Shown: piece after piece, positions 9,153 to 31,651 of the stretch
How the letters are laid out: each line of letters begins with the position of its first letter
How positions within the stretch are numbered: the first letter of the stretch is position 1
Assembly: GCA_021786845.1 (NCBI GenBank)
Contig: JAJYMO010000039.1
Coordinates: 1 to 32,366, forward strand
DNA from: Pseudomonadota bacterium
GTDB taxonomy: Bacteria; Pseudomonadota; Gammaproteobacteria; Burkholderiales; Sulfuriferulaceae
Length of the DNA: 32,366 nucleotides
Direction: 5' to 3'
The notes under the pieces: generated by a model
Databases searched by the model: none
What the model was told of the DNA's origin: nothing
Seen by the model: only the letters and a program-made list of their open reading frames with translations
Position numbers and translations under genes: made by a program

Positions 9153-9412
9153 GATAACCACCTGACCAGCATCATTACCCCGAACAACAGACTGGAGAGC
9201 ATGGACCCCGCCAACAATAACGGGGTTTCTGTCATCACCATTGCCCATGCCAGTGCCCAACGCACCCGCCAGACATAACGGAATTCGGGCGGTGAACGAT
9301 ATTTCGCACGGTCAATCGTGGACATGTTTCGCCACAACACGATTTGGCGTAAAAATACGCGTTGCTCAAGCCCATTCACCCAAAACAATGCAAATCCCAG
9401 CATGATTTTCAT
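9149..9412 (-). CDS. Small membrane protein in the trbK position
   Basis: An 87-residue protein lying exactly between trbJ and trbL, the place occupied by trbK (entry exclusion) in Trb operons. An N-terminal hydrophobic helix starts MKIMLGFALFWV, a basic middle contains RAKYRSPPEFRYVWR, and a second hydrophobic region lies at about 55-84. It overlaps trbJ by ATGA and trbL by GTGA, so it is clearly part of the operon. RP4 TrbK is a lipoprotein; no lipobox is visible here, so equivalence rests on position only. Confidence 0.7.
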   Translation of the reverse strand: MKIMLGFALFWVNGLEQRVFLRQIVLWRNMSTIDRAKYRSPPEFRYVWRVRWALAWAMVMTETPLLLAGSMLSSLLFGVMMLVRWLS

Positions 9413-10239
9413 GGTGTGATGGCTGCTGCCCATGCCTTGTGTTCCATCTGACTTTGACTGTAACCGGAGGGGGTATTGGCGCTGCTTGAAACCTGCTGCT
9501 GTTCCGCTTGCTGTTGTTGCGCCCATTGCAGGGCTGCACGCTGTCGCTGAGCCACATCAGTTTGTTGCCGTTGTGTGTGGTATGCCTGCTGCGCATGATG
9601 TTCCGCACTGGCTTGTGCAAATTGCCTGTTCAAATTGACGGTTTCTCCAGCCACCATCGCCATCAAAGTATTCAATTTATCCAGACCTTCCAAATTACCT
9701 TGACTGGGTAATTGCGTCATCATATTTTCCAAAGACGTCGATTTATCCGCCACATCCTGCAGGGTTTGGGTATCACGCTGATAGGCGGTTTGATATTGGC
9801 CCCCTTTTGTAGCGGCCAGCTGGGCTTCCATTTCCAGGTATTGTTGTGGATTAGTGCCCAAAGCCTGTGCTTCAACCATACGTGACCCCAGCATCTGTGT
9901 GGCCTGCTGATAAGAGGTTTGCATGGCATTCAGGTCATTTAATAGCTGCTGGGTTTGTTGACGCTGTGTTTTGTACACCGCAAGCGTGCCGTGTATCAAA
10001 TCCGCTGGCGCATTCACCAGATTTTTTTCTGCGTCCATCAACGTATTGATGCGTGTAATTTCGGCCTGCGCCTGATTTTCCAGCATGATCCCCTCTTTGA
10101 TGCCACTGTCCATCAATTTGATAAAATTGGCAATTTGTGTCCATTCTGTCGCCCATGTAAAGGCATGACCGGATTGCGAATAGGTCAGCATCCCTAACAT
10201 GACGCTGACAAACAGGTGTTTTTTTAGGGTGCTTTTCAT
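9409..10239 (-). CDS. trbJ: TrbJ/VirB5 family conjugal transfer protein
   Basis: Secreted minor pilus or mating-contact component, 276 residues. A signal peptide (residues 1-26, ending SQSGHA) is followed by FTWATEWTQIANFIKLM, the TrbJ-type start of the mature protein. A long helical Gln-rich body follows (about 50-240) and the C-terminus is low-complexity Gln/Ser/Ala. It lies 12 bases after trbE, and its stop overlaps the next gene by ATGA. The length and helical composition fit TrbJ better than short VirB5 proteins. Confidence 0.85.
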   Translation of the reverse strand: MKSTLKKHLFVSVMLGMLTYSQSGHAFTWATEWTQIANFIKLMDSGIKEGIMLENQAQAEITRINTLMDAEKNLVNAPADLIHGTLAVYKTQRQQTQQLLNDLNAMQTSYQQATQMLGSRMVEAQALGTNPQQYLEMEAQLAATKGGQYQTAYQRDTQTLQDVADKSTSLENMMTQLPSQGNLEGLDKLNTLMAMVAGETVNLNRQFAQASAEHHAQQAYHTQRQQTDVAQRQRAALQWAQQQQAEQQQVSSSANTPSGYSQSQMEHKAWAAAITP

Positions 10240-10251
10240 GCTGTCTGCTCA

Positions 10252-12705
10252 TCAGGAAAGCATGGCTGCCATATAATTCTCCCGCCAATTGGTCTGTCCC
10301 GATTCATAATGGTGTTGAAACTGCGTTTGCGCCAAAGAATCAGAACGCACGATCGCCAGTGTCACCGGATCAATGGACAGGATTGCCTGTCGAAATACGC
10401 CTGGTTGCTGAATGAAATAATCCCGCTTCGGTGTACCCGACGCGATTTGCGCCACATGATCTTCATGCAAACCAAACTGTTCCACATACAGGGGCAGCAT
10501 TTGTGGTGAAAGCGCATTGCTGTTAGGCAGATAGATTCTGGTCTGAATGTTGTCGCGCAAACTGGAAAACACACGAGAATCGGCAATGTCCTCCAGGGAC
10601 TGCGTTGCCATCACCAATTGCGCAACCAGTTTGGCAAAGGTTTTAGTCCAATCGCGAATTTTCTGTTCGAAATAAGGATTTTCCAGCATGAACCAACATT
10701 CTTCGACATAAATCAGTGTGGGAGTGACGCCATGCAGTGGATCACGCAACAAGGTATAAATACGGTAAAAGGCGTAATCCATAAATGCACGGGCCACATG
10801 CTCTTTTTGTAAAATTTCGCCCATTTCTATGCAGCAAAATTCCGATATGGAAAAGGTGTCTTCGTGATTATCAAAATAATGTGCCAATGCCCCTGAACCT
10901 ACCCATGCATCCAATTCATTTTGCAATGACGGTGCCAACACGGAATGCAAATGCCCCAACGTCCAATGCGCGGCATCTTGCGCGGATAAACCCTGTAAAG
11001 CATGCCAAACATCCTTCACATCCTCTGCCGTATAGCGATAACCGCGATAGCAGATTAAGCCTTCTACCCAACTTGCTAACCATTCCAACGCCCTGGCATC
11101 ACCCAGCAAACTCAGTGGATTCCAACGATTATGGCTATGCGCTGAAATATCGATGTGATCGCCGCCCATCATTAAAGTGGCGATACGACAAGATCGGTCC
11201 TTATCAAAAATAATGATTCGTGAGGGCGTGTATTTTCTAAATTGTGCAATCAACACATTCATCCCGGTAGATTTTCCTGATCGGGAAGGTCCTACTACCA
11301 AAGCATGTCCCAAATCACCCACATGCAAATTCAGGTAATACGGGGTGTTGTAAGCCGTTTCCAGTAACATGAGCGCAGCGGAATATTGACCACGTTGCTG
11401 GGTCAAATAAGCATTGCTTTGTTGTCCTGGATCTACAGTACGTAGCGGGGTAAGGTCCGACAAAGAGGGAATCTCCAACATAAACCAGCGCTTCTGTGTG
11501 GCATACATGCCGGCAATTCCCCCTGCAAATGCCGATAGCAAATGCGTTTTTTCTTTTATTACAGTCAAATTATTGAGTTCCAGCGCCGCAGACACTTTGG
11601 CAAGTACCTGCTCGGCGGCTTGTGCCGTGCCTGCAATTGCCATGACCTGAGCAGCATACCAGCCATAATAAGCATCATTCATTTCTACCCGGTTACTTGC
11701 CCGATGCGCTGCTTCAGCCGATTCCATCCTGGCATCATTAGTGCGCGCATCGGCATGACCGTTGAAAGCGAGGTACAGCCAAGTCAGTGGCGAATATTTC
11801 AGCAAATCATTATACTGGCGGACACTGGTTAAATAGCTTGTCACCTGCTTCTTGCTGGCAAAATGGAAATTTTGTGAGAACACCAGTTCACCATCCATGG
11901 ACAACAACTGATCAAATAGCCCTTGATAGGTCATCCGTGGCGGTTCTTTCAACGAAACACCCATGACATACGTACATTCATCGAAGAGCAAGTACTCGCG
12001 TTCAATGACCAATTCTGCGTTGGGTATATGTGTATCCAAAAATGGCATTGCGACCAACGCTTCCTGAGTGGATGAAGGGTTCACGCAGCGGCGTAACAAT
12101 CCCCTCAATGAATTGCCTGCGACACGCGCGATACCTAAACCGGATAAACGCTCCACAAAACGATCAAGCAAGCCATTAAATTTTTCTGTGCGACCGGCCA
12201 ATTCACTGGCCGCATAGGCAAATGCTTCATTGCCACGCAACAAAGATCCCAGCGTACGGCCCATGGCACGAAATACACCATATCCATTTTGCAGATAAAA
12301 TTGCATCCTCGTGGCAAGGCCATTCAATCCGCGATCGGGAATCAGGGTGATGGCCAAATAATTTCGGTTGCTAAAGTTGTTGCCAGAATCAAATTGCGCT
12401 TTCCGCTGCGCATCAATTAATTGGGAGTAGGGGTCGGGAAACACAGCGACCGGATAATGCGGACACTGTTGACGGTGCACCAACCAGGTAAATATGCAAG
12501 GTGCCTCTTTAAATACTTCATACGCCTGATCTAAAGCCTGAAGAAAATAGGCGACGTCGCCCGAACTTGATCCATCAATGTCGATACCCGCCACTTCAAA
12601 AAACACCGTCAATGAGCCGTCCTTGTTCACCACCACATCATCATCGCCATAGGTAAACATCCACGGCAACAACTCGGAAAATGGGCGCTCGTGATGCGTA
12701 TTCAT
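10252..12705 (-). CDS. trbE: TrbE/VirB4 family conjugal transfer ATPase
   Basis: Large cytoplasmic/inner-membrane ATPase powering pilus assembly and substrate transfer; 817 residues, the normal full length. The CagE/TrbE/VirB N-terminal domain spans about 1-400. The ATPase domain carries Walker A GPSRSGKST at 472-480 and a Walker B-like IYVEECWFML at about 665-674. The usual aspartate-glutamate pair is glutamate-glutamate here. A conserved ATQSLEDI segment follows at 700-707. The ATG overlaps the trbD stop by ATGA. The frame is intact, so the protein is probably made. Confidence 0.93.
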   Translation of the reverse strand: MNTHHERPFSELLPWMFTYGDDDVVVNKDGSLTVFFEVAGIDIDGSSSGDVAYFLQALDQAYEVFKEAPCIFTWLVHRQQCPHYPVAVFPDPYSQLIDAQRKAQFDSGNNFSNRNYLAITLIPDRGLNGLATRMQFYLQNGYGVFRAMGRTLGSLLRGNEAFAYAASELAGRTEKFNGLLDRFVERLSGLGIARVAGNSLRGLLRRCVNPSSTQEALVAMPFLDTHIPNAELVIEREYLLFDECTYVMGVSLKEPPRMTYQGLFDQLLSMDGELVFSQNFHFASKKQVTSYLTSVRQYNDLLKYSPLTWLYLAFNGHADARTNDARMESAEAAHRASNRVEMNDAYYGWYAAQVMAIAGTAQAAEQVLAKVSAALELNNLTVIKEKTHLLSAFAGGIAGMYATQKRWFMLEIPSLSDLTPLRTVDPGQQSNAYLTQQRGQYSAALMLLETAYNTPYYLNLHVGDLGHALVVGPSRSGKSTGMNVLIAQFRKYTPSRIIIFDKDRSCRIATLMMGGDHIDISAHSHNRWNPLSLLGDARALEWLASWVEGLICYRGYRYTAEDVKDVWHALQGLSAQDAAHWTLGHLHSVLAPSLQNELDAWVGSGALAHYFDNHEDTFSISEFCCIEMGEILQKEHVARAFMDYAFYRIYTLLRDPLHGVTPTLIYVEECWFMLENPYFEQKIRDWTKTFAKLVAQLVMATQSLEDIADSRVFSSLRDNIQTRIYLPNSNALSPQMLPLYVEQFGLHEDHVAQIASGTPKRDYFIQQPGVFRQAILSIDPVTLAIVRSDSLAQTQFQHHYESGQTNWRENYMAAMLS

Positions 12706-13022
12706 AACATTTGGTCTCGTCCAAATCCAACCGGACGACGATTAAACCGGTAATGCCCCGGCACTGACCAGGGCGTATAGTGGTCAGACTGTCTGGTGTA
12801 TTCGAGATAAATCTCTCGTGCTTGCAAATCTGATTTGGCCGCAAAAATCAGCACCCCGTGCAACCCCCCTACTATCAGAACGTACTGCCACACATGCAGC
12901 AACGCAATAGCCATAAAGCCGAAGGCCAGATTAGCCACCACCAGCTTAAACTCCCCACCGGCGAGCATCTTCACCTCGGATAATCGGGTGGCGACTTGTG
13001 TTCGGCGCACTATAGGCCGCAT
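12702..13022 (-). CDS. trbD: TrbD/VirB3 family conjugal transfer protein
   Basis: A 106-residue inner-membrane protein with a short cytoplasmic N-terminus, a hydrophobic hairpin at about 27-63 (KLVVANLAFGFMAIALLHV and following) and a C-terminal cytoplasmic segment, the TrbD/VirB3 layout. It lies directly upstream of trbE and overlaps it by 4 bases, as in known operons where the VirB3 type partners or fuses with VirB4. Assignment rests on topology, size and gene order. Confidence 0.82.
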   Translation of the reverse strand: MRPIVRRTQVATRLSEVKMLAGGEFKLVVANLAFGFMAIALLHVWQYVLIVGGLHGVLIFAAKSDLQAREIYLEYTRQSDHYTPWSVPGHYRFNRRPVGFGRDQML

Positions 13023-13068
13023 GGTTTCGAATATTGATGCAAAGTGAGATGCCCAAAATATCAGGATA

Positions 13069-13344
13069 TTAATGCACAGGTGCGGCCGAAATGCTTGCCA
13101 CAGTCGTTTGATTACAAGGCAAAGCGATACCCATGCCGGCCATAATGGCCGGTATTCCCAACAACATCCCGGCGCCGATACCGACCACTAAAAAGGTCAT
13201 CACCGGGAAACCGCGCCCACCCATATCTGTTAGCCATGCAATCACGCCCACGGCTAAAGTGATGGCCACAATCAGCCCTATCATGGCAGGGCTATCAAAA
13301 AAATTGCTTAAAATATAGCAAAATGGTTGGTATAAAGCATTCAT
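13069..13344 (-). CDS. trbC: TrbC/VirB2 family pilin-like protein
   Basis: A 91-residue, very hydrophobic protein with two membrane helices (about 19-40 and 48-72) separated by a short Gly/Arg loop, MGGRG, the VirB2/TrbC pilin arrangement. It probably is the major pilus subunit. GAGG lies 7 bases before the ATG. No classic cleavable signal peptide is obvious, which is somewhat unusual for the family. The assignment is supported by its position between trbB and trbD. Confidence 0.78.
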   Translation of the reverse strand: MNALYQPFCYILSNFFDSPAMIGLIVAITLAVGVIAWLTDMGGRGFPVMTFLVVGIGAGMLLGIPAIMAGMGIALPCNQTTVASISAAPVH

Positions 13345-13393
13345 ATGCTGTCCTCATTAAATGAAACTGGCCATCATCCTGGTACACGCCAAC

Positions 13394-14473
13394 TCACTGC
13401 GGATGCCCTGCGGGAAAACGACTAAAAATTTCTCGAAACTGATACCTTTCTTGCTCAAAACCCATTATTTCCACCACCCGTACCGGTCCACGCTGACCCC
13501 CCAAATTAGCCGCTTGCACCACAAAGCGAAAAGTCTGGGCAATTTGACGCGCCATCGCCGCTTGCGGGAAATTAACGGCTTCCGGCGACATGCGCATTAA
13601 ACTCTCCAGGCGATTCAGCGCTGATTCTGCCGTGTCAGCATGTATCGTGCTGATACCCCCTGAGTGTCCGGTATTCAGCGAATCCACCAAGTCGTAGGCT
13701 TCGCCGCCACGAATTTCTCCCACCACAATACGATCTGGACGAAAACGCAGACAAACCCGAACCAAAGCACGCACATCCACACCCAAATCGCGATTGGCCT
13801 CAAATGACACCCGATTAGGCGCATCTAACTTGAGTTCGGCCGTGTCTTCTATCGTAATCACCCGTTGATTTGCAGGTATTGCTTGTAACAGGGCATTGGT
13901 CAAAGTGGTTTTACCCGAACTGGTTCCTCCTGCAATGAGCACGTTATGTCGATGTTCTACCGCCCAAGTTAAAAACTGGCGTAAAAAATCTCCACCTTGT
14001 TGTACCAGCGTCTCAGATGGGCGCTGCGCGCCAACGCGATAGCTTTGCTGGGCTTCAGCCACCTGGAATGGCGAAAATGCGCCATTTGCCACATATTCAT
14101 GCAATGAAATTTGTTGTGCCGCATGTTTACGCAGGCTCATCGCATGGCCATGAATGGCAATGGGATACATCACCGCCGCAACACGCATATCAGGTAATCG
14201 TGCGTCCATAATGGGTGTCAGTTTTTTATCATTATTGGAAGCCAGGGCACGTATTGCCATCTCTACCGCCAGCGGTTGCAAACTCGCCTCTATCCTTTGC
14301 ATCACCCCAGATTCTTCTACCCAAATTTCTTCCGGTCGATTAATCATGATTTCCTGCACATTCGGATTATCCAGATGGGACAAAATTGGTCGCAATGCGC
14401 CGCGCAATACATCCAGTGCTTTGCGCCCTTTGCTACTCTGCACAATCTCACCTCGATTCAATTCCATATTCAT
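13394..14473 (-). CDS. trbB: TrbB/VirB11 family secretion ATPase
   Basis: Hexameric traffic ATPase of the type IV secretion machine, 359 residues from ATG 14473. Visible are Walker A GGTSSGKTT at 182-190, the Asp box ITIEDTAEL, a Walker B region with GEIRGGEAYDLVDSLNTGHSG (252-272), and the His box STIHADTAESALNRLE just after. A TTG at 14479 and an ATG at 14467 are alternative starts. The gene overlaps the upstream transglycosylase gene by 26 bases. It is the first gene of the canonical trbBCDE order. Confidence 0.94.
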   Translation of the reverse strand: MNMELNRGEIVQSSKGRKALDVLRGALRPILSHLDNPNVQEIMINRPEEIWVEESGVMQRIEASLQPLAVEMAIRALASNNDKKLTPIMDARLPDMRVAAVMYPIAIHGHAMSLRKHAAQQISLHEYVANGAFSPFQVAEAQQSYRVGAQRPSETLVQQGGDFLRQFLTWAVEHRHNVLIAGGTSSGKTTLTNALLQAIPANQRVITIEDTAELKLDAPNRVSFEANRDLGVDVRALVRVCLRFRPDRIVVGEIRGGEAYDLVDSLNTGHSGGISTIHADTAESALNRLESLMRMSPEAVNFPQAAMARQIAQTFRFVVQAANLGGQRGPVRVVEIMGFEQERYQFREIFSRFPAGHPQ

Positions 14474-14933
14474 CGGCAATGTTCTTTAGTTTAATAAAAA
14501 CTTGCTGTGCGTAATGAACCCGTTTAATTTCAGTTTTTGCGTTATAAGCGCCGACCGCACGCCAATTCTTGCCATACAAGATAAAATTATTCGCCAATAT
14601 CCAGGCACCCACATTTAAGTTAATGCACGGATTCTTTAATTCCTCGAACCCAATGCCATAGGGCTTTAATACAGGCAACCATGATGTATTTATCTGCATC
14701 AAACCAATATCATATGACCCGTTTTCATTGTGGTTAACTGCATGAGGATTCAACCCTGATTCATGTTCCGCAATGGCCAGCAATAAATACCGGGACACGG
14801 CAAACCGTGCCTCGACATCGCCCCAGCAGTCCGCATGGCTTTCTGCACAAAATATCATTCCTAATAATATAAAATATTTCATTAAAATGCGTATTATTTT
14901 TAACAAACGCACGAACGACTTAAATTTAATCAT
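14448..14933 (-). CDS. Lytic transglycosylase (VirB1/TrbN type)
   Basis: Secreted murein-degrading enzyme that opens the peptidoglycan for the secretion apparatus. A 161-residue SLT-like domain: catalytic glutamate E58 in AEHESGLNP, then YDIGLMQINTSWLP (75-88) and VGAYNAKT near 127-134, all family hallmarks. A hydrophobic export signal ends at SHA before DCWGD. The ATG at 14933 gives a long N-region; the ATG at 14882 would give a compact 17-residue signal and may be the true start. Neither start has a ribosome binding site. It is the first gene of the block and overlaps trbB. Its base composition is more AT-rich than that of its neighbours. Confidence 0.87.
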   Translation of the reverse strand: MIKFKSFVRLLKIIRILMKYFILLGMIFCAESHADCWGDVEARFAVSRYLLLAIAEHESGLNPHAVNHNENGSYDIGLMQINTSWLPVLKPYGIGFEELKNPCINLNVGAWILANNFILYGKNWRAVGAYNAKTEIKRVHYAQQVFIKLKNIADEYGIESR

Positions 14934-21051: not shown

Positions 21052-21906
21052 ATGACCAATACAATGACACTACCAGTATTAAGTAACCATGCCACCAGTT
21101 TGGAAAGTTACATTTATACTGTAAACAATTACCCGATACTGAGCCAGGAGGAAGAGACTTCGCTTGCCTACCGTTTACGTGATCAGCAGGATGTCGACGC
21201 TGCCGGACGCTTGGTGATGTCGCATTTGCGTGTAGTGGTCAGCATCGCACGCAAATACATCGGCTATGGCTTGCCGCAGGCTGATCTTATCCAGGAAGGC
21301 AACATTGGCTTGATGAAGGCGGTTAAACGGTTTGATCCTGACCGTGGTGTACGTCTAGTCTCTTTTGCGATGCATTGGATTAGGGCGGAAATTCACGAAT
21401 ACGTATTACGCAATTGGCGAATGGTGAAAATTGCCACCACCAAAGGGCAGCGAAAATTATTTTTTAATCTGCGCAGTTTGAAACAGAACAGTCACAGCTT
21501 GACCCATACCGAGGCAGAGGCGATGGCCAAAGAATTGGGTGTCAAACGTGAAGAAGTTCTGGAAATGGAAACACGTTTTAGCGGGCAGGACGTCGCTTTG
21601 GATACCAGCTTTGAAGATGGTGAAGAAGCTTTTACACCCATTGCTTATTTATCAGACCCTGAAGCAGAGCCCTCACGAATTCTTGAGCGTGCTGCTGCAG
21701 AACGTTTGGCTGGATCAGGGTTAAGCGAAGCATTGTGCCAGCTTGATCCCCGTAGCCAACGCATTGTTCAAGCGCGCTGGCTCAATGAGGAAAACCCTTC
21801 TACGTTGCATGAATTAGCTGCAGAATTTGGTATTTCAGCTGAACGGGTGCGGCAAATTGAAAACAAGGCCATCTTGAAATTGCGCCAAGCGCTGAAAACT
21901 GCTTAA
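21052..21906 (+). CDS. rpoH: RNA polymerase sigma-32 factor RpoH
   Basis: Alternative sigma factor for heat-shock genes, 284 residues. Region 2 contains the core-binding DLIQEGNIGLMKAVKRFDP and the -10 recognition stretch VSFAMHWIRAEIHEYVLRNWR. The RpoH box QRKLFFNLR at 133-141 separates it from the primary sigma factors. Region 4.2 includes ISAERVRQIENKAILKLR. GGAGG lies about 9 bases before the ATG. The upstream 170 bases may hold the promoter and a translational thermosensor, but I could not fold it reliably. Confidence 0.96.
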   Translation: MTNTMTLPVLSNHATSLESYIYTVNNYPILSQEEETSLAYRLRDQQDVDAAGRLVMSHLRVVVSIARKYIGYGLPQADLIQEGNIGLMKAVKRFDPDRGVRLVSFAMHWIRAEIHEYVLRNWRMVKIATTKGQRKLFFNLRSLKQNSHSLTHTEAEAMAKELGVKREEVLEMETRFSGQDVALDTSFEDGEEAFTPIAYLSDPEAEPSRILERAAAERLAGSGLSEALCQLDPRSQRIVQARWLNEENPSTLHELAAEFGISAERVRQIENKAILKLRQALKTA

Positions 21907-22212: not shown

Positions 22213-22317
22213 TTACCAACGAAAAATCACCGAAAAAAAACTCAACCAAGCCATAACAATCAGGCCCACAATGATGGTTAGGGGGAAATTGGCTTTACCA
22301 AAAAAATATTGAACCAT
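22213..22317 (-). CDS. Single-helix membrane peptide A beside the cbb3 locus
   Basis: A 34-residue peptide with a short N-terminus containing FGKANFP, one membrane helix (about 11-32, with LIVMAWLSFFSV) and an FRW end. GGCAAGGAG lies 7 bases before the ATG, a strong ribosome binding site. It is clearly paralogous to peptide B at 22567-22674: both share FGK, NFP, LIV and AWLSF in register. An extended -10 promoter lies just upstream. Placement after ccoS suggests an accessory subunit of the cbb3 oxidase comparable in kind to CcoM, but homology to CcoM is not evident, so the role is inferred only from location. Confidence 0.7.
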   Translation of the reverse strand: MVQYFFGKANFPLTIIVGLIVMAWLSFFSVIFRW

Positions 22318-22364
22318 TGCGATACTCCTTGCCCAGTTAAAAGAGTTAACTATCTATTTGTCAC

Positions 22365-22373
22365 ATATTAGCA
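22365..22373 (-). promoter_or_regulatory. Extended -10 promoter of membrane peptide A
   Basis: On the - strand the motif TGC-TAATAT (22373-22365) fits an extended -10 element. It predicts a start near 22358, about 40 bases before the ATG at 22317. The -35 is weak (TTGCAA at 20 bases). Peptide A may therefore be transcribed separately from peptide B. Confidence 0.45.
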
Positions 22374-22566
22374 CAACTAAATAACAATTCTTGCAACACA
22401 TACAAAGAATTTAAGAGGTATTTATATCATTTCACGAAAACCAGCCAGTAAGTCCTGGTCACACAGTCGTGGAAGACATTCATTGTTACAAAAAAAATTT
22501 TAAATCAAACCAGCATGCCACGTGCATGCCTGCCTGACATCATCTCTTCAATGATAAAACATGAAA

Positions 22567-22674
22567 TCAAGAAGCGATCACCACCGAAAGAAAACTTAAC
22601 CATGCCGTGACAATTAAAGCCACAACCAGGATCATAGGAAAATTGGTGCTTTTACCGAACATAAATTCTTTCAT
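22567..22674 (-). CDS. Single-helix membrane peptide B beside the cbb3 locus
   Basis: A 35-residue peptide, MKEFMFGKSTNFP followed by one membrane helix (about 13-34, containing LIVTAWLSFLSVV). AGGGAGAG stands 5 bases before the ATG. It aligns with peptide A over its full length with conserved FGK, NFP, LIV and AWLSF. The gene lies 149 bases downstream of ccoS on the same strand. The shared AWLSF-S-V core suggests a helix packing against a larger membrane complex, and the cbb3 oxidase is the obvious candidate. Function is not demonstrated. Confidence 0.72.
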   Translation of the reverse strand: MKEFMFGKSTNFPMILVVALIVTAWLSFLSVVIAS

Positions 22675-22823
22675 TTATCTCTCCCTGATTTAACCCAAAT
22701 AACTTGTTTTGCGGCATCTGTGAACCGATGCAGGCGCAGAAAAATATGCAGGCTTAATTGGCGACAATATCAACATCGACTAAAAAACCGGACAGCACGC
22801 TGGAATTCTAACACAAACTGCGC

Positions 22824-23045
22824 TTAATGTGATTTTGAAACAGGCGTGTCATCCAGCGTTGTCGCATTAATAACAACCTGATTCCCCGGCAAAAGCGGGT
22901 CATCCTCGTCCATTAAAATACGCTGTGCAGGCCCTTCCAAATCTTCAAACTGCCCACTTTTAATTGCCCAAAAAATACCCAGCACCAGAAACGCAATAAA
23001 TAGACTGGTCATGGCCAGCAAATACACCAAAGTTGAAGTAATCAT
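22824..23045 (-). CDS. ccoS: cbb3-type cytochrome oxidase assembly protein CcoS
   Basis: A 73-residue single-helix membrane protein needed to insert cofactors (heme b, copper) into cbb3 oxidase. The helix at about 6-28 is followed by the family signature FWAIKSGQFEDLEGPAQRIL and an acidic DEDDP stretch. It lies 271 bases after ccoI on the same strand, separated by a hairpin. Its C-terminal tail after LPGNQ is longer than the minimal family core. Confidence 0.92.
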   Translation of the reverse strand: MITSTLVYLLAMTSLFIAFLVLGIFWAIKSGQFEDLEGPAQRILMDEDDPLLPGNQVVINATTLDDTPVSKSH

Positions 23046-23102: not shown

Positions 23103-23316
23103 AAGGCGCGAGACATGCGGTTGTATCACTCACAACAAGCGGTTTGCTGCGTCGGGATGTGCGCAAACAAAGCGACTCCAATCCGGAAGGTTGCCATGTA
23201 TTTGTGTGTCCGCAATGTCGCAAAGCTTGCGAATGGAACAACCATTTGCCGCGCTTTACACTTTGCATCTATCACAAATACACGACAACATAAGTCAAAC
23301 TTTTTTTCACAACCGC

Positions 23317-25734
23317 TCAACGCAACCTTAACGCATTTAATACCACAATCAGCGAACTAAAAGACATGCCCAATGCAGCCAGCCAGGGTGACACATAGCC
23401 CAACGCTGCCATAGGCAGTGCGACCAGATTATAAACCAATGCCCACCATAAATTTTGGTGCATCACTTTCCGTGTCGCCATGCTGGTTTCTATCGCACCA
23501 GCCACATCCAGCAACCGGCTTGAAAGCAGCACAATGTCACTGCTTTGACTGGTCACATCGACACCAGTTCCCACGGCAAATGAAACTTGTGCACCAGCGA
23601 GTACTGGCGCGTCGTTCACGCCATCACCCACCATCGCTACCACAGCACCTTCTGCTTGTAATGATTTGATGTAATTTAATTTATTGGCGGGGCTTTGTCC
23701 ATAATAATAATTATTCACATTCAGCTGGTGCGCTGTATAGGCCACAGCAGACTCAGCATCTCCCGACAGAATACTCAGCGTCATGCCACGCGCTTGTAAT
23801 GCCTGGATTGCGATCAGCGCGTCATCCCGCAACCGGTCTTGCAAGACAAACAGCGCCAAAAGTTTTTTTTCATCTCGTAACCAGACGCAGGTTGCGCCTG
23901 GGAATATCAAAAGTTGTTCCGCTTCCATGGTTGAGTCGCCGTGACCAACGAACATAGCGTTACCTAATTGATACGACTTACCCTCTATCCGTGCCGATAT
24001 CCCTTGCCCGGGTGTATTGCTGATAAGGTCTACCGCAAACAACGACTGCTTGCTCACCCGGGAAAGAAATGCCTGCGCAACAGGATGTGAAGAGGCCTGT
24101 TCCAAACTTGCCGCAAGACGAATGCTCTGCGCCTCATCGATTTCAGACAAAGGCAAAACCGCGACGATTTGAGGTTTGCCCATGGTCAAAGTGCCTGTTT
24201 TATCAAATACCACATGATTGACATGGGCCAAAGTTTCTAATGCATGGCCGCGCATAACTAAAATACCCTGACGAATCAGATGAGAACCAGACGCCGCCAA
24301 TGCGGCAGGCACAGCCAAAGACAGGGCACAGGGACAGGTCACCACCAAAACAGACAACACAATTTCAAATGCTCGCTGGCGATCATGCCATAACCAAAAT
24401 AGATAGACCAACAGCGCGAACCCCAATAACCCCCAGGTAAACCAGGCGGCCACTTGATCAGCCAGTTGGGCGATTTTTGGTTTTTCGGCTTGTGCTTTAT
24501 CGACCAAACGCACAATACCCGCCAGGACTGTGTGTTCACCCACACCGCCAACCCGAATGACCACCGGGCTATCCAGATTGATACTGCCTGCAATGACCTT
24601 GGCACCGGCCTGCTTGCTGACGGGTCGAGATTCACCCGTCAGCAAGGCTTCATCTGCACTGGTTTGCCCATCCAGTACCTCTCCATCTGCGGCAAAGGTT
24701 TCTCCAGCCTTAACCAAAATGTGATCGCCAACCAGCAATTCCAGCACTGGCACATATGCCTGCTGCCCGTCTCTCACCCGTAAAGCCATCGCGGGTTGCA
24801 ACTTCAATAAATTTTCAGCTGCTTCAACAGATTTTTCCTGGGCACCCGTTTCCAGCATGCGCGACGCCAGCAAAAAAAGGGTAAACATGGCGATGGTGTC
24901 ATAATATACCGACGTACCACCCATCATGGTGACCCATAAACTGCCGACAAATGCACTTAAGATAGCCAACGACACGGGCACATCCATATTCAAGTGCTTT
25001 GAACGCAAGCCACTCCACGCCGAACGATAAAAAGGAGTCGCCGCAAAGAACACCACCGGCAAAATCAGGAACAGGCTGAACCAGCGCAATAATTTTTGTG
25101 TGCTGGCATCTATGCCATACCGGCTACCCGCGTAAAGCGCAACGGCGATCATCATCACTTGTGCAGAGGCAATTCCTGCAATAGCCAACCGCTGCAGTTC
25201 TTTTTTGCGCCGTTGTTGTCGATACGCATCTGCCTGACGTGCGTTATAAGGATGCGCGTTGTAACCCAACAATTGAATTTCTTGCAAAATGCGTGACAGG
25301 TTGATGTATCGCGCATCCCAACTCACACGTGCACGATGGCTGGAATAATTCACATCAACGGTTAACACTCCCGTCAATTGCCTGAGATGCCGTTCATTCA
25401 ACCACACACAGGCCGCACAAGTAATACCTTCCAGAATAAGCACCGCCTCTTTGGCATATTCACTCGTTTGAATCACGAAGCTGCGTTGAATTTCGGGGTG
25501 ATCATACAAAGCCAGTTTTTGAAGCACCTCGGGCAACACCTCTTGTCCACTGGCAGGCATCGCGGTGCGGTTCTGATAATAGTCGCTGAGACCGTTGTCC
25601 ACAATGGCTTGCGCCACAGCCAGGCAACCTCGACAACACATACGACGCTGCTGCGAACTGATCAAAACAGCAAAGTCAGTATGTGGCGGGACTGGCAGGC
25701 CACAATGGTAGCAATCGCCCTCTTGCTCAGCCAT
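23317..25734 (-). CDS. ccoI: Copper-translocating P-type ATPase CcoI (FixI)
   Basis: Inner-membrane P1B-type ATPase that exports copper toward assembly of the CcoN CuB site; 805 residues. The N-terminus has CYHCG and a CCRGC cluster (DUF2318-like/FixI-type Cys-rich region), then an HMA domain with CAAC at 106-109. The membrane core includes CPC at 467-469, the phosphorylation motif DKTGTLT from D511, SSHPVAQAF and GDGVNDAP. ATG 25734 was chosen (MAEQEGDCYHCG); an in-frame TTG at 25764 is less likely. It is 91 bases after ccoH. Confidence 0.95.
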   Translation of the reverse strand: MAEQEGDCYHCGLPVPPHTDFAVLISSQQRRMCCRGCLAVAQAIVDNGLSDYYQNRTAMPASGQEVLPEVLQKLALYDHPEIQRSFVIQTSEYAKEAVLILEGITCAACVWLNERHLRQLTGVLTVDVNYSSHRARVSWDARYINLSRILQEIQLLGYNAHPYNARQADAYRQQRRKKELQRLAIAGIASAQVMMIAVALYAGSRYGIDASTQKLLRWFSLFLILPVVFFAATPFYRSAWSGLRSKHLNMDVPVSLAILSAFVGSLWVTMMGGTSVYYDTIAMFTLFLLASRMLETGAQEKSVEAAENLLKLQPAMALRVRDGQQAYVPVLELLVGDHILVKAGETFAADGEVLDGQTSADEALLTGESRPVSKQAGAKVIAGSINLDSPVVIRVGGVGEHTVLAGIVRLVDKAQAEKPKIAQLADQVAAWFTWGLLGFALLVYLFWLWHDRQRAFEIVLSVLVVTCPCALSLAVPAALAASGSHLIRQGILVMRGHALETLAHVNHVVFDKTGTLTMGKPQIVAVLPLSEIDEAQSIRLAASLEQASSHPVAQAFLSRVSKQSLFAVDLISNTPGQGISARIEGKSYQLGNAMFVGHGDSTMEAEQLLIFPGATCVWLRDEKKLLALFVLQDRLRDDALIAIQALQARGMTLSILSGDAESAVAYTAHQLNVNNYYYGQSPANKLNYIKSLQAEGAVVAMVGDGVNDAPVLAGAQVSFAVGTGVDVTSQSSDIVLLSSRLLDVAGAIETSMATRKVMHQNLWWALVYNLVALPMAALGYVSPWLAALGMSFSSLIVVLNALRLR

Positions 25735-25825
25735 TAAGATGACAGCCCCGATATTGGCAACCAAATTTCACAAAAATGAAAACTTGTTGGGCACTGGCTC
25801 AGTGTATTTGTATTCATTGCATCAA

Positions 25826-26617
25826 TTACTTAAAACTCACTTGCACATCCCGGTCAATCTGAATGCTGTTTTGTTCAACACGGATAGTTGTGCGCATTAA
25901 CCAGTTACCACCTGAGTGAATAATCAGATGACCCAGATACTCACCGTCTGCACCCGGAACCAAGCTAACGGGAGGAATAGCCTCCTGGCTGTCCGCCCGC
26001 ATCAATTGCACTGAAATTTTAGCACCATTTACCGGCAACCCTTGCGGATCGAGCAGCACTAACCGCAATGCGTTAGCCGCTGAGGGATTAACAGAAAGAT
26101 GATTGACGCCATCAATTTCAATTTTCCATCCCAATTTACGCATCTCATCTTCCGCCTTCAATTCCGAATTTTCAGCACTGGCGGCATCTTCATCGTGGCG
26201 GGTAACCCCTGTAAAACCGGTATAAACAGGTTTCTTGCTGGCATTGGGCAAAAACCAGGCAGCCACCCTTGGTGGTACACCATTGAGGGAAATATTGACA
26301 AAGATACCATCTACCACAAACAACACCAGAAAAAAAACAATCAGCGATTTAATTGACCAATGTATCGCACTCTTGCTTCCCTTACGTACCCCAATCACCA
26401 TCGTTAAAACGGTCGCTGTGGACAGGTAAAGCGCCACATGAATTGACAGCACATCCAGTTCCATCCCATGAAACAAACTGTAGCCCAACAAAGCGAATGT
26501 CGGCACTGCGCCCGAAATCACACCGCGCCAATAATTGGCAACACCCATACGACCCAGACCGAAATGCAACACCAGCACTAACGCAATACCACCAAACAAA
26601 GTAATAACCATATTCAC
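25826..26617 (-). CDS. ccoH: CcoH/FixH-like cbb3 assembly protein with extra membrane domain
   Basis: A 263-residue protein. Residues 1-110 contain four predicted membrane helices (about 3-21, 31-50, 56-77 and 88-107). Residues about 160-263 form an FixH/YtkA-like beta domain, including LRLVLLDPQGLPVNGAKISV and GNWLMRTTIRV. Typical FixH has about 150-170 residues and a single helix, so this is an enlarged form with an N-terminal membrane module. The GTG start overlaps the ccoG stop (GTGA); ATG 26611 is an alternative. Its place between ccoG and ccoI supports the CcoH role in oxidase assembly or stability. Confidence 0.82.
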   Translation of the reverse strand: MNMVITLFGGIALVLVLHFGLGRMGVANYWRGVISGAVPTFALLGYSLFHGMELDVLSIHVALYLSTATVLTMVIGVRKGSKSAIHWSIKSLIVFFLVLFVVDGIFVNISLNGVPPRVAAWFLPNASKKPVYTGFTGVTRHDEDAASAENSELKAEDEMRKLGWKIEIDGVNHLSVNPSAANALRLVLLDPQGLPVNGAKISVQLMRADSQEAIPPVSLVPGADGEYLGHLIIHSGGNWLMRTTIRVEQNSIQIDRDVQVSFK

Positions 26618-28050
26618 GATGCACTCAATTCACTAGAAAAATTAGAAGGAATCACTTCAACATCTTTTGGATTAGTTAATGATTTAATCACAAAATTAAA
26701 TTTACGATGCTTCATGATCTGGTCAGGCCACAACAATACACCTACATCCACAAGCACCGTTTGCCCACTGTGCACACGCACTGTTTGCATCACGCCCAAA
26801 TCAAGCGCACCAGCAGGTAAGTCCGGTGTGCTAATTTGGTACACGGCATCTCCTTGAGAATCATTGTCAAGACGTATTTCATATCGATTTCGAATTTCAC
26901 CATTCGACATGACCACATACAGAGGCTGGCGAATCTGCTCCACGCTGTCTTCCATATCCGTTTGATGCAACACGCTCACCACCAGCAATGCACTCATACC
27001 AATAATAGCAATTAAATAGCCCAGCACCTTCAGTCGCTTCCAGGACAAATGCGGTGGCTTTGGGGATCCCGACTCGATATTGTATTCAGAATCGTAACGT
27101 ATCAGCCCACGAGGGAATCCCACTGAGCTCATGACCTCGTTACAACCGTCGATACACAGGCCGCAGGAAATACAACGGTATTGCAAACCATCGCGGATAT
27201 CTATCCCCGCCGGACAAACCTGAACACAAATCCCGCAATCAATACAATCGCCGTGCCCCTGCTCATGACGGGACTCAAGTGATTTTAAATCGCCCTTCAT
27301 GGTCACCCGACCCTTTTCCCCCTCACCCCGGTGGTAATCATAAGCGACAGCCAGCGTTTCAGGCTCGTACATAACGCTTTGGAAACGACCGTATGGACAT
27401 ATGTAAGCACAGATTTGTTCCCGCATAAATCCCGCGGCAAGGTAAGTAGAGAAGGTCAACGCAAAGACTGTGTAATAGGCCGCGCTCGCAGCTTGTCCAA
27501 TAAAGAAACGATGAAGTAAATCTGGTGCATAGCCGAAATACAGTATAAACGTTACACCTGTCCAAAAAGCCAATAACAGCCAAACAGCATGTGTCGCCCC
27601 TATTTTAAGAATCTTCTCACCATTCCATGGCTGCTTCATCAACTTCATTCGTGCGGGGCGTTCACCTTGTACCCACTTCTCAACGAACATAAATAAATCT
27701 GTCCATACAGTTTGAAAACAAAAATAACCGCAGAAAGCACGGCCAATCAATGCTGTCGCAAAAAACAGAAATGTGGCAGCAATAAACAGCAATAAAGCCA
27801 ACCAAAACACATTTTGGGGATACACGACCAAATCGAATACAAAAAATCGGCGTCCCATCACATCAAATGCAACGGCTTGAGGAATACCGCTTTCCCTTTG
27901 CCATGGCATCCACGGCAAAAGAAAAAAAACAGAAAGTGCAAAGACTAAAACGCTCGTTTTAAAATTCCTGAATTTTCCATGTACAGTACGCGGAATAATA
28001 GGAATGCGCTTTTCATACAAGGGAGCAGAATCAAGCACATTGTCTTCCAT
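26614..28050 (-). CDS. ccoG: cytochrome c oxidase accessory protein CcoG
   Basis: Membrane-bound iron-sulfur protein implicated in copper reduction during cbb3 assembly; 478 residues. Membrane helices surround CGYFCFQTVW and CAYICPYGRFQS. Two ferredoxin-type 4Fe-4S clusters follow in CIDCGICVQVCPAG and CISCGLCIDGC. The C-terminal immunoglobulin-like FixG_C domain covers about the last 110 residues. ATG 28050 has GGAG 8 bases upstream; earlier in-frame starts lie inside the upstream terminator. It opens the ccoGHIS part of the locus. Confidence 0.95.
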   Translation of the reverse strand: MEDNVLDSAPLYEKRIPIIPRTVHGKFRNFKTSVLVFALSVFFLLPWMPWQRESGIPQAVAFDVMGRRFFVFDLVVYPQNVFWLALLLFIAATFLFFATALIGRAFCGYFCFQTVWTDLFMFVEKWVQGERPARMKLMKQPWNGEKILKIGATHAVWLLLAFWTGVTFILYFGYAPDLLHRFFIGQAASAAYYTVFALTFSTYLAAGFMREQICAYICPYGRFQSVMYEPETLAVAYDYHRGEGEKGRVTMKGDLKSLESRHEQGHGDCIDCGICVQVCPAGIDIRDGLQYRCISCGLCIDGCNEVMSSVGFPRGLIRYDSEYNIESGSPKPPHLSWKRLKVLGYLIAIIGMSALLVVSVLHQTDMEDSVEQIRQPLYVVMSNGEIRNRYEIRLDNDSQGDAVYQISTPDLPAGALDLGVMQTVRVHSGQTVLVDVGVLLWPDQIMKHRKFNFVIKSLTNPKDVEVIPSNFSSELSAS

Positions 28051-28060
28051 TTTCATCTCT

Positions 28061-28090
28061 CCAAAACAAAACCCCCGCATCAAGCGGGGG
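28061..28090 (-). terminator. Intrinsic terminator after ccoNOQP
   Basis: Read leftward, CCCCCGC TTGAT GCGGGGG (28090-28072) forms a strong 7-bp GC stem directly followed by TTTTGTTTT. It stands 47 bases after the ccoP stop and immediately before the ccoG ribosome binding site, separating structural from assembly genes. Confidence 0.85.
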
Positions 28091-28137: not shown

Positions 28138-29058
28138 TTATTGACCACCACCCAAATCATGCTCATACACAGTAAGCAATTTTATTTGTTCAGCTGACAA
28201 CCGGTTTTTCCATGTCGGCATGACGCCTTTGTTCAATCCGCCCGTAATCACCTTTTTGATTGCATCTTCTTTGTCTGCGATGGTTTTAGCGCCTGGCACA
28301 TTCGCCCACAGCCAAATTCCGTCCGTCAAATTTGCCGAACCATGGACAACACGGCCTTTTGCATCGGCACCGTGGCAATAGTAACATGCCGCAGTTTCTG
28401 AGTGGAACAAAGCATTTCCGGCTTGCGCACTGGCTGGGTTAACGGGAATTTTTTCGAAGCTTAAAATATAATCAGCAAGTTGCGTCATTTGCACATCGCT
28501 GAGTACGGTGCCAAACGGCGGCATATACCCATGACGACCGTCCGTGATGGTTTGCTGAATTTCTTTGTAATGCCCGCCCCATAACCAATCATCATCCGTC
28601 AAATTAGGTGCCAAACCGAATTTTCCAGCACCGCCCTGTTGATGGCACGGTGCGCAGTTATCCGAAAACAGCATTTTACCCGCTGACAGAACAAAGCTGT
28701 TTAACTCAGGATCTTTGGCAATATCCTCAAATGGCGTACTGGCAATTTTATCGTAATAGGGTTTTTGTGCAGCCACCGCCTCATTGGTTTCCTTCATTAA
28801 CAGTGCCCGAGTATTCCAATGCACAGTTTTGGTGATGCCCTGATTATTGGTATAGGTGATCATCATCAGGCCTTTGGTATGCGTACGTCCAATTGGCCAT
28901 GCCGGATACATAAACCAATAGACAATCGCAAACACCACAGTCATATAAAATGCGATTAACCACCAGTTTGGCAATGGGTTGTTATACTCCTGCAAATCGC
29001 CATCCCACACATGGCCAGTTGTTTGCGGAACATGTGGTTGTTTATTGTTTACACTCAT
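28138..29058 (-). CDS. ccoP: cbb3 oxidase subunit III, diheme cytochrome CcoP
   Basis: Membrane-anchored diheme cytochrome c passing electrons to CcoO/CcoN; 306 residues. The FixP N-terminal domain contains WDGDLQEYNNPLPNWW and one membrane helix at about 32-52. The two heme c sites are CAPCH (135-139) and CYYCH (225-229), with later methionines in GYMPPF and GVMPTW as axial ligands. The ATG overlaps the ccoQ stop by ATGA. Confidence 0.97.
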   Translation of the reverse strand: MSVNNKQPHVPQTTGHVWDGDLQEYNNPLPNWWLIAFYMTVVFAIVYWFMYPAWPIGRTHTKGLMMITYTNNQGITKTVHWNTRALLMKETNEAVAAQKPYYDKIASTPFEDIAKDPELNSFVLSAGKMLFSDNCAPCHQQGGAGKFGLAPNLTDDDWLWGGHYKEIQQTITDGRHGYMPPFGTVLSDVQMTQLADYILSFEKIPVNPASAQAGNALFHSETAACYYCHGADAKGRVVHGSANLTDGIWLWANVPGAKTIADKEDAIKKVITGGLNKGVMPTWKNRLSAEQIKLLTVYEHDLGGGQ

Positions 29059-29243
29059 TTTTTCTCTTCCCTCGCGTTGGAATCGTCATCAAGGAACGGG
29101 ATGTTCTTATGGCTTTCAATTGTTTCACCGCGTTTTTTGTTGCCATACACATAGACCAATATCACCACAAAGGTCACAAACAGAATGACCAATGCCAGCG
29201 GTTTGGTATGCTCGTACGATGAAAACCAGTATATCCACCCCAT
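29055..29243 (-). CDS. ccoQ: cbb3 oxidase small subunit CcoQ (FixQ)
   Basis: A 62-residue single-helix subunit (helix about 15-34, PLALVILFVTFVVILVYVY), followed by NKKRGETIESHKNIPFLDDD, a typical CcoQ tail. It supports stability of the CcoNOP complex. It lies between ccoO and ccoP and overlaps ccoP by 4 bases. Confidence 0.92.
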   Translation of the reverse strand: MGWIYWFSSYEHTKPLALVILFVTFVVILVYVYGNKKRGETIESHKNIPFLDDDSNAREEKK

Positions 29244-29264: not shown

Positions 29265-30002
29265 TTAACGATATTTTACAAATGCATCGTCATCGTATTT
29301 ACGGAAATCCACCATCGTGCCCAGAACTTGCAAATAGGCCACCAAGGCATCCATTTCGGAAATATGACTGCGATCTCCGTCATAATCACCCTGCTCGGCT
29401 TGCGCGATTAAATTTTGTCTGGCATGTGTGATATCCAGCAACTTGGCCGTGTCAGGCCCAAACTTCTTAACATTTGCATTGTATTCCGCCTGATTCAACG
29501 AATAAGGTACGCCCGTCTGACGCAGCGCCCTCATACGGTCTTCGATATCAGAATAATCAAGTGGCGTAGTCAGTAACCATGGGAAGTTTGGCATCACTGA
29601 CTGAGGCACCACAGATCGCGGGCTTACCAAGTGTTGAGTCATCCACTCGTTGGAGTATTTCTTCCCCACGCGAGCCAAATCGGGCCCCGTACGCTTGGAA
29701 CCCCATTGAAACGGGTGATCATATTGCGATTCAGCCGCCAAAGAATAATGACCATAACGCAAGGCTTCGTCACGGAAAGGACGGATCATTTGTGAATGGC
29801 ACAAGTAACAACCTTCACGTTGATAAATATCCCGCCCGCGTAACTCCAGGGGGGTATATGGACGCACCCCATCCACTTTTTCCACTGTGTCTTTAAGAAA
29901 AAACAATGGTGCGATTTCTACCAAACCACCGATGCTGATGGCCAACATGGTTAACACAGCCAGCAGGCCAATATTTGTTTCTATCCATTCATGCTTGAAC
30001 AT
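29265..30002 (-). CDS. ccoO: cbb3 oxidase subunit II, monoheme cytochrome CcoO
   Basis: Membrane-anchored cytochrome c, 245 residues. An N-terminal helix (about 10-34) precedes [23 protein letters not shown], with heme site CYLCH at 65-69. The conserved [11 protein letters not shown] and GPDLARVG segments follow. GGGAGA lies upstream of the ATG, 13 bases after ccoN. Complete length. Confidence 0.97.
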
Positions 30003-30015
30003 TCATTATCTCCCT

Positions 30016-31467
30016 TTATACACCAGCGCTTGCAAGTTTAACTGCGGGTGAAATGGCTGCTGCACGACCGCCCTGGCGAATGGTCATCATAATATTCGTG
30101 GCCATCAACACCATCCCCGTCAAGAAGAACATGCCACCAAATGCACGCATTACGTACAAAGGATGCATGGCAGCCACAGACTCCACAAATGAATATTGTA
30201 AATTGCCATACTGGTCAAACGCACGCCACATCAAACCCTGGGTGATGCCTGAAATCCACATCGCTGTGATATACATCAGCACACCGATCGTCGCTAACCA
30301 GAAGTGAATACCAATCAGCTTTTCGCTCCATATCTTGGTATTCCACAATTTTGGAATCATGTGATAAAGTGAGCCGAAAGTAATCATCGCTACCCAACCC
30401 AATGCGCCCGAGTGCACGTGGCCCACGGTCCAGTCAGTATAGTGCGACAAGGCATTCACATCTTTCAGCGCCATTAAGGGGCCTTCGAAGGTGGCCATGC
30501 CATAAAATGACAACGCCACAATCATGAAACGCATAATAGGATCCGTCCGCAACTTGTCCCACGCCCCAGACAAGGTCATGATGCCGTTGATCATACCGCC
30601 CCATGAAGGCAGCAGCAGCATGATGGAAAACGTGGCAGCCAGCGTTGAAGTCCAGTCAGGCAAAGCGGTCCAGTGCAGGTGATGTGCACCAACCCACATA
30701 TACAGGAAAGACAATGCCCAGAAGTGGACAATGGACAAACGGTAAGAGTAAATCGGACGCCCTGCCTGCTTTGGCACGAAGTAATACATCATGCCCAGGA
30801 AGGCCGCAGTGAGGAAGAAACCCACTGCATTGTGTCCGTACCACCACTGCGTCATAGCGTCCTGCGTCCCGGCAAACAAACTGTAGGATTTCATTGAGAA
30901 CAGGCTAATCGGCACAGCGAGGTTATTGAAGGTATGCAACAATGCCGTTGCCAAAATGAAAGACAGGAAGAACCAGTTGGCCACATAAATGTGTGGCTGC
31001 TTCCTTTTCATAATGGTACCAACGAAAACAATCAGGTAAGACACCCAGGTGACTTCAATCAGCAGGTCTATCGGCCATTCCATTTCCGCGTATTCACGTG
31101 CCTGGGTATAACCCAGCATATAGCTGATATCGGCCAGCACAATGGCGGCTTGCCAACCCCAGAATGTAAATGTCGCCAGACCTTCGCCAAATAAGCGAGC
31201 CTGACAGGTACGTTGAACGATGTAGTAGGAGGTGGCAAACAAAGCGCTGCCCCCGAAACCAAAAATCACCGAGGAGGTGTGCGCAGGACGCAACCGGCCA
31301 AAGGTAATATAAGGGATATCCATGTTCATAATCGGCCACGCCAATTCCGAGGCGATATAGACCCCTATCGACATGCCAATTAGACCCCATATGATGGCCA
31401 TAAAGGCAAATTTTTTCACAACTTCAAAATTATATTGCTCATTACTACTGATTTCTGTAGCCGTCAC
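30016..31467 (-). CDS. ccoN: cbb3 oxidase catalytic subunit I CcoN
   Basis: Heme-copper oxidase subunit that reduces oxygen at the heme b3-CuB site with high affinity and pumps protons; 483 residues, about 12 membrane helices. Histidine ligands are visible in [30 protein letters not shown] and [12 protein letters not shown], and GMMYYFVP carries the tyrosine of the C-family active site. The start is GTG 31467, with AAGGAGG 5 bases upstream; an extension to 31506 would add 13 residues without a ribosome site. First gene of ccoNOQP, controlled by the FNR-type promoter upstream. Confidence 0.97.
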
Positions 31468-31609
31468 GTGAGCCTCCTTAATAAAATAATTACAACAGTC
31501 AGTCAAACATCACCAACCAAAAATATACGACTAGCTAATATACCACTAACTAATAGCAATAATACAGTCTTAATTGTTCTTTACATTTCTTTTACTTTAA
31601 TATCTTTAT

Positions 31610-31651
31610 ATATTAGATGATCCATGAGATCATAGTTATGATCTGGATCAA
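31610..31651 (-). promoter_or_regulatory. FNR-dependent promoter of ccoNOQP
   Basis: An FNR box, ATGAT-CTGG-ATCAA (31638-31651), matches TTGAT-N4-ATCAA at 9 of 10 positions. On the - strand TAATAT lies at 31615-31610. A start near 31603 puts the FNR box centre at -41.5, the class II activator position. A second inverted repeat, ATGATC-CATGA-GATCAT (31617-31633), overlaps the promoter. This predicts induction of the high-affinity oxidase under low oxygen by the FNR encoded next door. Confidence 0.72.

Follow-up and report, generated by a model that had tools for sequence, protein, structure and literature searches.

A family of single-helix membrane peptides encoded downstream of ccoS tracks one lineage of cbb3 oxidases

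The cbb3 oxidases serve respiration at very low oxygen in many bacteria. Small proteins are known from other terminal oxidases, too, and CydX is a tiny single-helix protein of the cytochrome bd-type enzyme. For cbb3 itself, excerpts of four reports describe CcoM of Pseudomonas stutzeri, a subunit of 36 aa with a role in stability, and point to further small helpers of terminal oxidases (PMC8267372, PMC11955535, PMC9264385, PMC10433244). The excerpt of one of them gives CioY as a protein of 34 aa that is encoded downstream of cydB and binds CioA (PMC11955535). In that of another, Campylobacter jejuni Cj1485 has 33 residues with a central helix and was studied alongside Cj1483, the homologue of CcoH; deletion of Cj1485 lowered cbb3 activity without abolishing it (PMC8267372). 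A peptide at the place described in the following does not appear in the titles and abstract openings of the listed papers on cbb3, a body of text with most subscription papers and all preprints outside its scope.

The window analyzed in this work, a stretch of 32,366 nucleotides, carries two small genes, pepA and pepB, between ccoS and a convergent rpoH. On the minus strand, pepA (22213..22317) encodes a membrane peptide of 34 aa with a single predicted helix, MVQYFFGKANFPLTIIVGLIVMAWLSFFSVIFRW. Its paralogue pepB (22567..22674, minus strand) encodes 35 aa, MKEFMFGKSTNFPMILVVALIVTAWLSFLSVVIAS, and starts 149 bp beyond the end of ccoS on the same strand. Ribosome binding sites were read from the sequence for both, AAGGAG for pepA (22325..22330, minus strand), 7 nt before the ATG, and AGGGAG for pepB (22681..22686, minus strand), 6 nt before the ATG. 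The two proteins align over their full length with 1 gap and 18 residues in common. Each contains one hydrophobic stretch, with a 19-residue hydropathy of 1.73 (pepA) and 1.70 (pepB), and remains below about 50 aa. An own-genome search returned pepA and pepB as the only two family matches. The earlier note on this DNA had described two leftward frames with ribosome binding sites, homologous to each other throughout and following ccoS on its strand, and all of this held, with ccoS identified by both PF03597 and TIGR00847. In the gap between the twins, a terminator-like stem-loop with a T-rich tail (22512..22530, minus strand) is a weak candidate, with 3 such sites in the window versus 1.8 expected, and promoter- and terminator-like sites in the window generally come in numbers close to those in shuffles.

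Upstream of the twins the operon is complete in the order ccoN-O-Q-P-G-H-I-S, all on the minus strand. Its ccoN (30016..31506; TIGR00780) belongs to the peptide-carrying lineage as judged from identity and tree. There follow ccoO (29265..30002; TIGR00781), ccoQ (29055..29243; 62 aa, PF05545 E 6.2e-8), ccoP (28138..29058; TIGR00782), ccoG (26614..28083; TIGR02745) and ccoH, or FixH (25826..26617; PF05751 E 1e-7, no NCBIfam match). The copper P-type ATPase gene ccoI (23317..25764, with an alternative start maybe at 25737; TIGR01511/TIGR01525) was named from its place in the operon, and ccoS (22824..23045; PF03597 E 2.9e-16, TIGR00847) encodes a cbb3 assembly protein. On the other side, rpoH (21052..21906, plus strand; TIGR02392) is the convergent neighbor, a position conserved across loci. 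About 130 bp upstream of ccoN there is an FNR-box-like site with one mismatch (31638-31651); an FNR-site scan over the window gave 2 sites versus 1.9 expected, which is chance level. Between ccoI and ccoS, in a gap of 271 bp, there is an inverted repeat of 17 nt with 66 nt between its arms (23190-23289). About 7 kb separate the peptides from a type IV secretion or conjugation cluster with TrbL/VirB6, VirB4/TrbE and VirB11 model matches (7755-14933), which is flanked by apparent housekeeping genes.

Among the described proteins, CcoM is the nearest analogue, although its sequence is unrelated. It resembles the family in size, in its single hydrophobic helix and in cbb3 association, which for the family is given by gene linkage and co-occurrence only. 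Homology was rejected, as the 36-aa chain N of PDB 5djq yielded an hhalign probability of 0.24% and no BLASTP match; the earlier remark that the peptides do not obviously resemble CcoM was thus borne out. Moreover, CcoM has its basic residues at the C-terminal end, whereas the family has them at the N-terminal end, and the opposite topology is hence predicted. Counted over 71 sequences, K/R number 91 in the N-terminal parts and 4 in the C-terminal tails, and D/E 54 and 0, respectively. With this N-terminal K/R surplus, the positive-inside rule for membrane protein topology makes an N-in/C-out orientation likely. CydX and CioY are likewise very small proteins with one helix that go with a terminal oxidase, but they serve a different, bd-type oxidase superfamily. 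Cj1485 is similar in its described size and central helix. CcoQ (FixQ), also a small single-helix cbb3 component, is separate from the peptides, since a CcoQ is encoded in the window at 29055-29243; PF05545 matches this protein and has no match in pepA, pepB or any of the 22 family members scanned. The CcoS/FixS models PF03597 and TIGR00847 matched, of three proteins scanned, the neighboring ccoS product only. With small oxidase-associated membrane proteins as a kind, the family has in common its size and hydrophobicity as well as linkage to and co-occurrence with an oxidase.

In Pfam, the 22 members gave chance-level matches only (best E 0.079), and the weak ones, to LapA and others, were rejected as far under the cut-offs. 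None of the 22 matched any NCBIfam model. Against the PDB, the family profile matched none of the cbb3 chains whose sequence is known, and matches to the mineralocorticoid receptor (best E 0.029) were judged to be chance.

In the order, a 22-row profile was searched against 399 genomes from 158 genera and matched 57 genomes in 20 genera, of which 55 were kept. Two probable false positives were dropped, namely G255 (E 2.2e-5 over 20 residues, without ccoN or ccoS) and G400 (E 0.002, within a 493-aa open frame, in a genome with ccoN and ccoS). G078 (E 1.7e-5) was kept because its match lies beside ccoS. Of the 274 genomes in the class sample, 48 had a match to a 71-row profile; they include the window's own, and the weakest matches are possibly false. 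The carriers include Methylobacillus gramineus VKM B-2591, a Sulfuricella MAG (L035, 29.5 bits) and two Proteobacteria MAGs that are close relatives (L031, L032), of which one shares the tandem twin arrangement. Homologues have 26-44 residues, and a plausible ribosome binding site precedes most. Homologous short frames beside ccoS, which the earlier note had proposed to look for in related genomes, are present in the order and class samples alike. Among 62 peptide-negative class genomes, 25 have ccoS, and its flanks of up to 1.5 kb hold no peptide-like frame. A phylum sample of 150 genomes, drawn irrespective of cbb3 content, returned the own genome and one weak match only, and plasmid searches gave no real match to the family.

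Selection at the codon level was likewise apparent. For 25 hand-chosen pairs of relatives, the pooled pN/pS was 0.21 (pN 0.080, pS 0.387), with four pairs weakly constrained (0.40, 0.41, 0.59 and 0.99). In a frame control with the 23 equal-length pairs, the true frame gave 0.21, compared to 0.85 and 2.78 in the other forward frames and 0.79, 0.35 and 2.87 in the reverse frames, where r1 at 0.35 was also low. The true-frame value thus stands against 0.35-2.9 elsewhere, and the codon-level constraint, whose absence the earlier note would have taken as a refutation, is present. Because homologues share both synteny and codon-level purifying selection, pepA and pepB are more than chance frames; they are real genes under purifying selection. 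Conservation in the 71 sequences centers on P12 (65), L19 (69), W24 (63, otherwise Y), S26 (68), S29 (68) and V30 (69), and these near-invariant residues suggest a fixed helix partner. A preference of conserved residues for one helix face was not significant in the same 71 sequences (p 0.10-0.20).

The family tracks one cbb3 lineage, and the other sampled lineage is without the peptide. ccoN (TIGR00780) occurs in 296 of the 399 order genomes, far above the peptide count, and cbb3 in general is hence no predictor of the peptide. In a 200-genome sample, the listed CcoN identities to that of the window were either 76-100% or at most 68%, with nothing between. With lineage classes defined by this identity, and in counts that ignore shared ancestry, the peptide was present in 30 of 31 genomes of the high-identity class (cross-read by eye) and in 0 of the 107 other CcoN-bearing genomes, 104 of them at 68% or less and three, G027, G167 and G194, with identity unlisted. 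In the exception, G061, the contig stops about 106 bases past the matched part of ccoS. Among the 55 peptide genomes retained, ccoS is present in all and ccoN in 53; the contigs of the two without a ccoN match, G050 and G136, start inside the operon (L100, L112). Operon order separates the lineages as well, N-O-Q-P-G-H-I-S-pep in the peptide lineage versus I-S-N-O-P-G in the other. Four genomes without the peptide (G320, G348, G218, G247), from two bacterial families that usually have it, contain a single ccoN each in the I-S-N-O-P-G order. Where a genome has both ccoN kinds (G001, G006, G007, G066, G121, G149, G225, G304), the peptide stands beside the first kind only.

The same division was found in a CcoN tree with FastTree support values and midpoint root, built from 107 sequences after 6 short-flank ones of the 113 extracted had been left out, and with G008 entering twice (L032, L071). 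One branch with a local support of 100 splits 66 members from 41. A peptide lies downstream in the examined locus for 51 of the 66 and for 0 of the 41. For 12 of the other 15 among the 66, the genome encodes a peptide at another place; the contigs of the last 3 (L177, L202, L225) stop too early.

Homologous frames beside ccoS in related genomes and codon constraint thus support the proposal of the earlier note that the twins are under selection as small subunits or assembly factors of the cbb3 oxidase, in which membership in the complex is the inferred part. Beyond that proposal, the family extends far past this locus and is specific to one cbb3 lineage. We consider it highly probable from the sequence data that the pepA/pepB family has an accessory single-helix role in cbb3, be it as permanent subunit or as assembly factor. 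That the peptide is a permanent subunit would have about an even chance. The helix would insert so that the charged N-terminus faces the cytoplasm and the C-terminus the periplasm. It would pack on the membrane part of the oxidase via the near-invariant L19, A/S23, S26 and V30, and this packing would stabilize CcoN/O/P assembly or cofactor loading, akin to the presumed action of CydX and CcoM. A tie to one lineage that is kept outside the operon, too, would be expected of a component touching lineage-specific surfaces of CcoN, CcoO or CcoP.

Alternatively, the peptide could be an assembly factor only, a transient partner of CcoS/CcoI while CcoN receives its copper or haem, and stay outside the finished enzyme, which we regard as possible without being probable. 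The gene neighborhoods bear on this. Of 103 distinct sites, 87 adjoin ccoS and/or a convergent rpoH, and at 73 of the 103 ccoS lies up to 2.5 kb upstream on the same strand, so the peptide gene usually adjoins the gene of an assembly protein, as an assembly-only role would have it. This pair even persists in the bacterial family f26 (G042, G088, G131, G204) and in Methylobacillus, where the rest of the operon is elsewhere. After ccoI, at the position that ccoS takes in other genomes, Methylobacillus gramineus has two genes that by eye look bacterioferritin-like (L033, 12500-13700). At the class level, all 19 loci examined outside the window, from among the 47 other positive genomes, adjoin ccoS, ccoI or rpoH. 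With 13 of 20 class regions, CcoN is 70-76% identical and the peptide lies downstream of ccoS; the other 7 are without oxidase genes in the examined stretch, and only ccoS, ccoI or rpoH are near. Against a role in assembly only, other genomes keep the peptide by rpoH without ccoS. CcoS and CcoI also accompany the other cbb3 lineage, with which the peptide was not found. As a point against the accessory cbb3 role itself, the ccoN operon moved in some bacterial families and the peptide stayed by rpoH. In G005 (L206, L087), the cco operon is on a separate contig and the pepB-type copy is by rpoH, behind gatA/gatB-like genes.

The remaining 16 of the 103 sites are away from both ccoS and rpoH; they comprise second copies, some lone single copies and the doubtful L131 and L245. 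In G005 (L080, 9388-9705) and G015 (L134, 662-982), a small c-type cytochrome gene (PF00034) adjoins the pepA-type copy. The two cytochromes are 90.6% identical over 106 residues, and such a protein is a possible electron donor of the oxidase. One second copy (L093), preceded by an outer-membrane efflux gene (PF02321), stands at the tail of what by eye is an RND operon, and this position would also suit a factor acting in assembly only. Further copies (L083, L088, L094) lie among nitrate-uptake-like genes, as judged by eye, and at L083 one close neighbor is a BTP-family efflux protein. Copies thus also exist away from the cco operon, which weighs against the accessory role in cbb3.

Judging from the sequences, pepA and pepB represent an old duplication that is kept in several relatives, with both copies under constraint. 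Twins occur in the genus and in other class members, and duplication thus is recurrent and sometimes retained. A reading compatible with the accessory cbb3 role, although rather unlikely in our estimate, is that the two copies encode alternative isoforms of a single small subunit, each for its own conditions. Two convincing copies are present in 9 of 18 genomes of the genus, and G000, G008, G005 and G015 have kept both a pepA-type and a pepB-type copy, in G005 and G015 at separate places. Adjacent twins are also found in two further class members (L248, L265), and the terminator-like site separates the twins of the window. However, most genomes of the order and class samples have a single copy, and sites of the promoter and terminator type are about as numerous as in shuffles.

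It is very improbable that the peptide belongs to rpoH, the gene of the heat-shock sigma factor, be it as a small membrane protein encoded after that gene or as a short regulatory frame. A convergent rpoH is indeed found within 2.5 kb downstream at 77 of the 103 sites and stays when the cco operon leaves. However, rpoH is probably near-universal in these classes, whereas the peptide goes with one cbb3 lineage and was not detected in those sampled genomes whose only cbb3 was of the other. Copies without a nearby rpoH exist, and the convergent arrangement of the two genes places the peptide outside the rpoH leader. A functional tie of rpoH to the peptides is thus doubtful. Chance open frames or a spurious repeat can practically be dismissed, for although short frames are common, with 42 frames of at least 25 aa overlapping 3.5 kb, homologues with the same neighbors in many bacterial families and a pN/pS of 0.21 speak against it.

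The accessory role in cbb3 thus remains our preferred reading of the family, which is a marker that separates two cbb3 lineages and a concrete case of a small protein missing from Pfam and NCBIfam. The five distinct CcoN sequences among the listed PDB matches score 650-740 bits against the CcoN of the window, which is the range of the other lineage. The peptide lineage is hence probably without a solved structure, and such a component could be missed. We may speculate, while holding it for distinctly unlikely, that the peptide is an integral subunit, obligatory yet overlooked, by which a cbb3 lineage of its own in beta- and gammaproteobacteria is defined, with the extra copies as exchangeable isoforms. 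If so, exchangeable copies, be they tandem twins or linked to cytochrome, efflux or nitrate genes, would retune the stability, electron donor or oxygen affinity of the oxidase.
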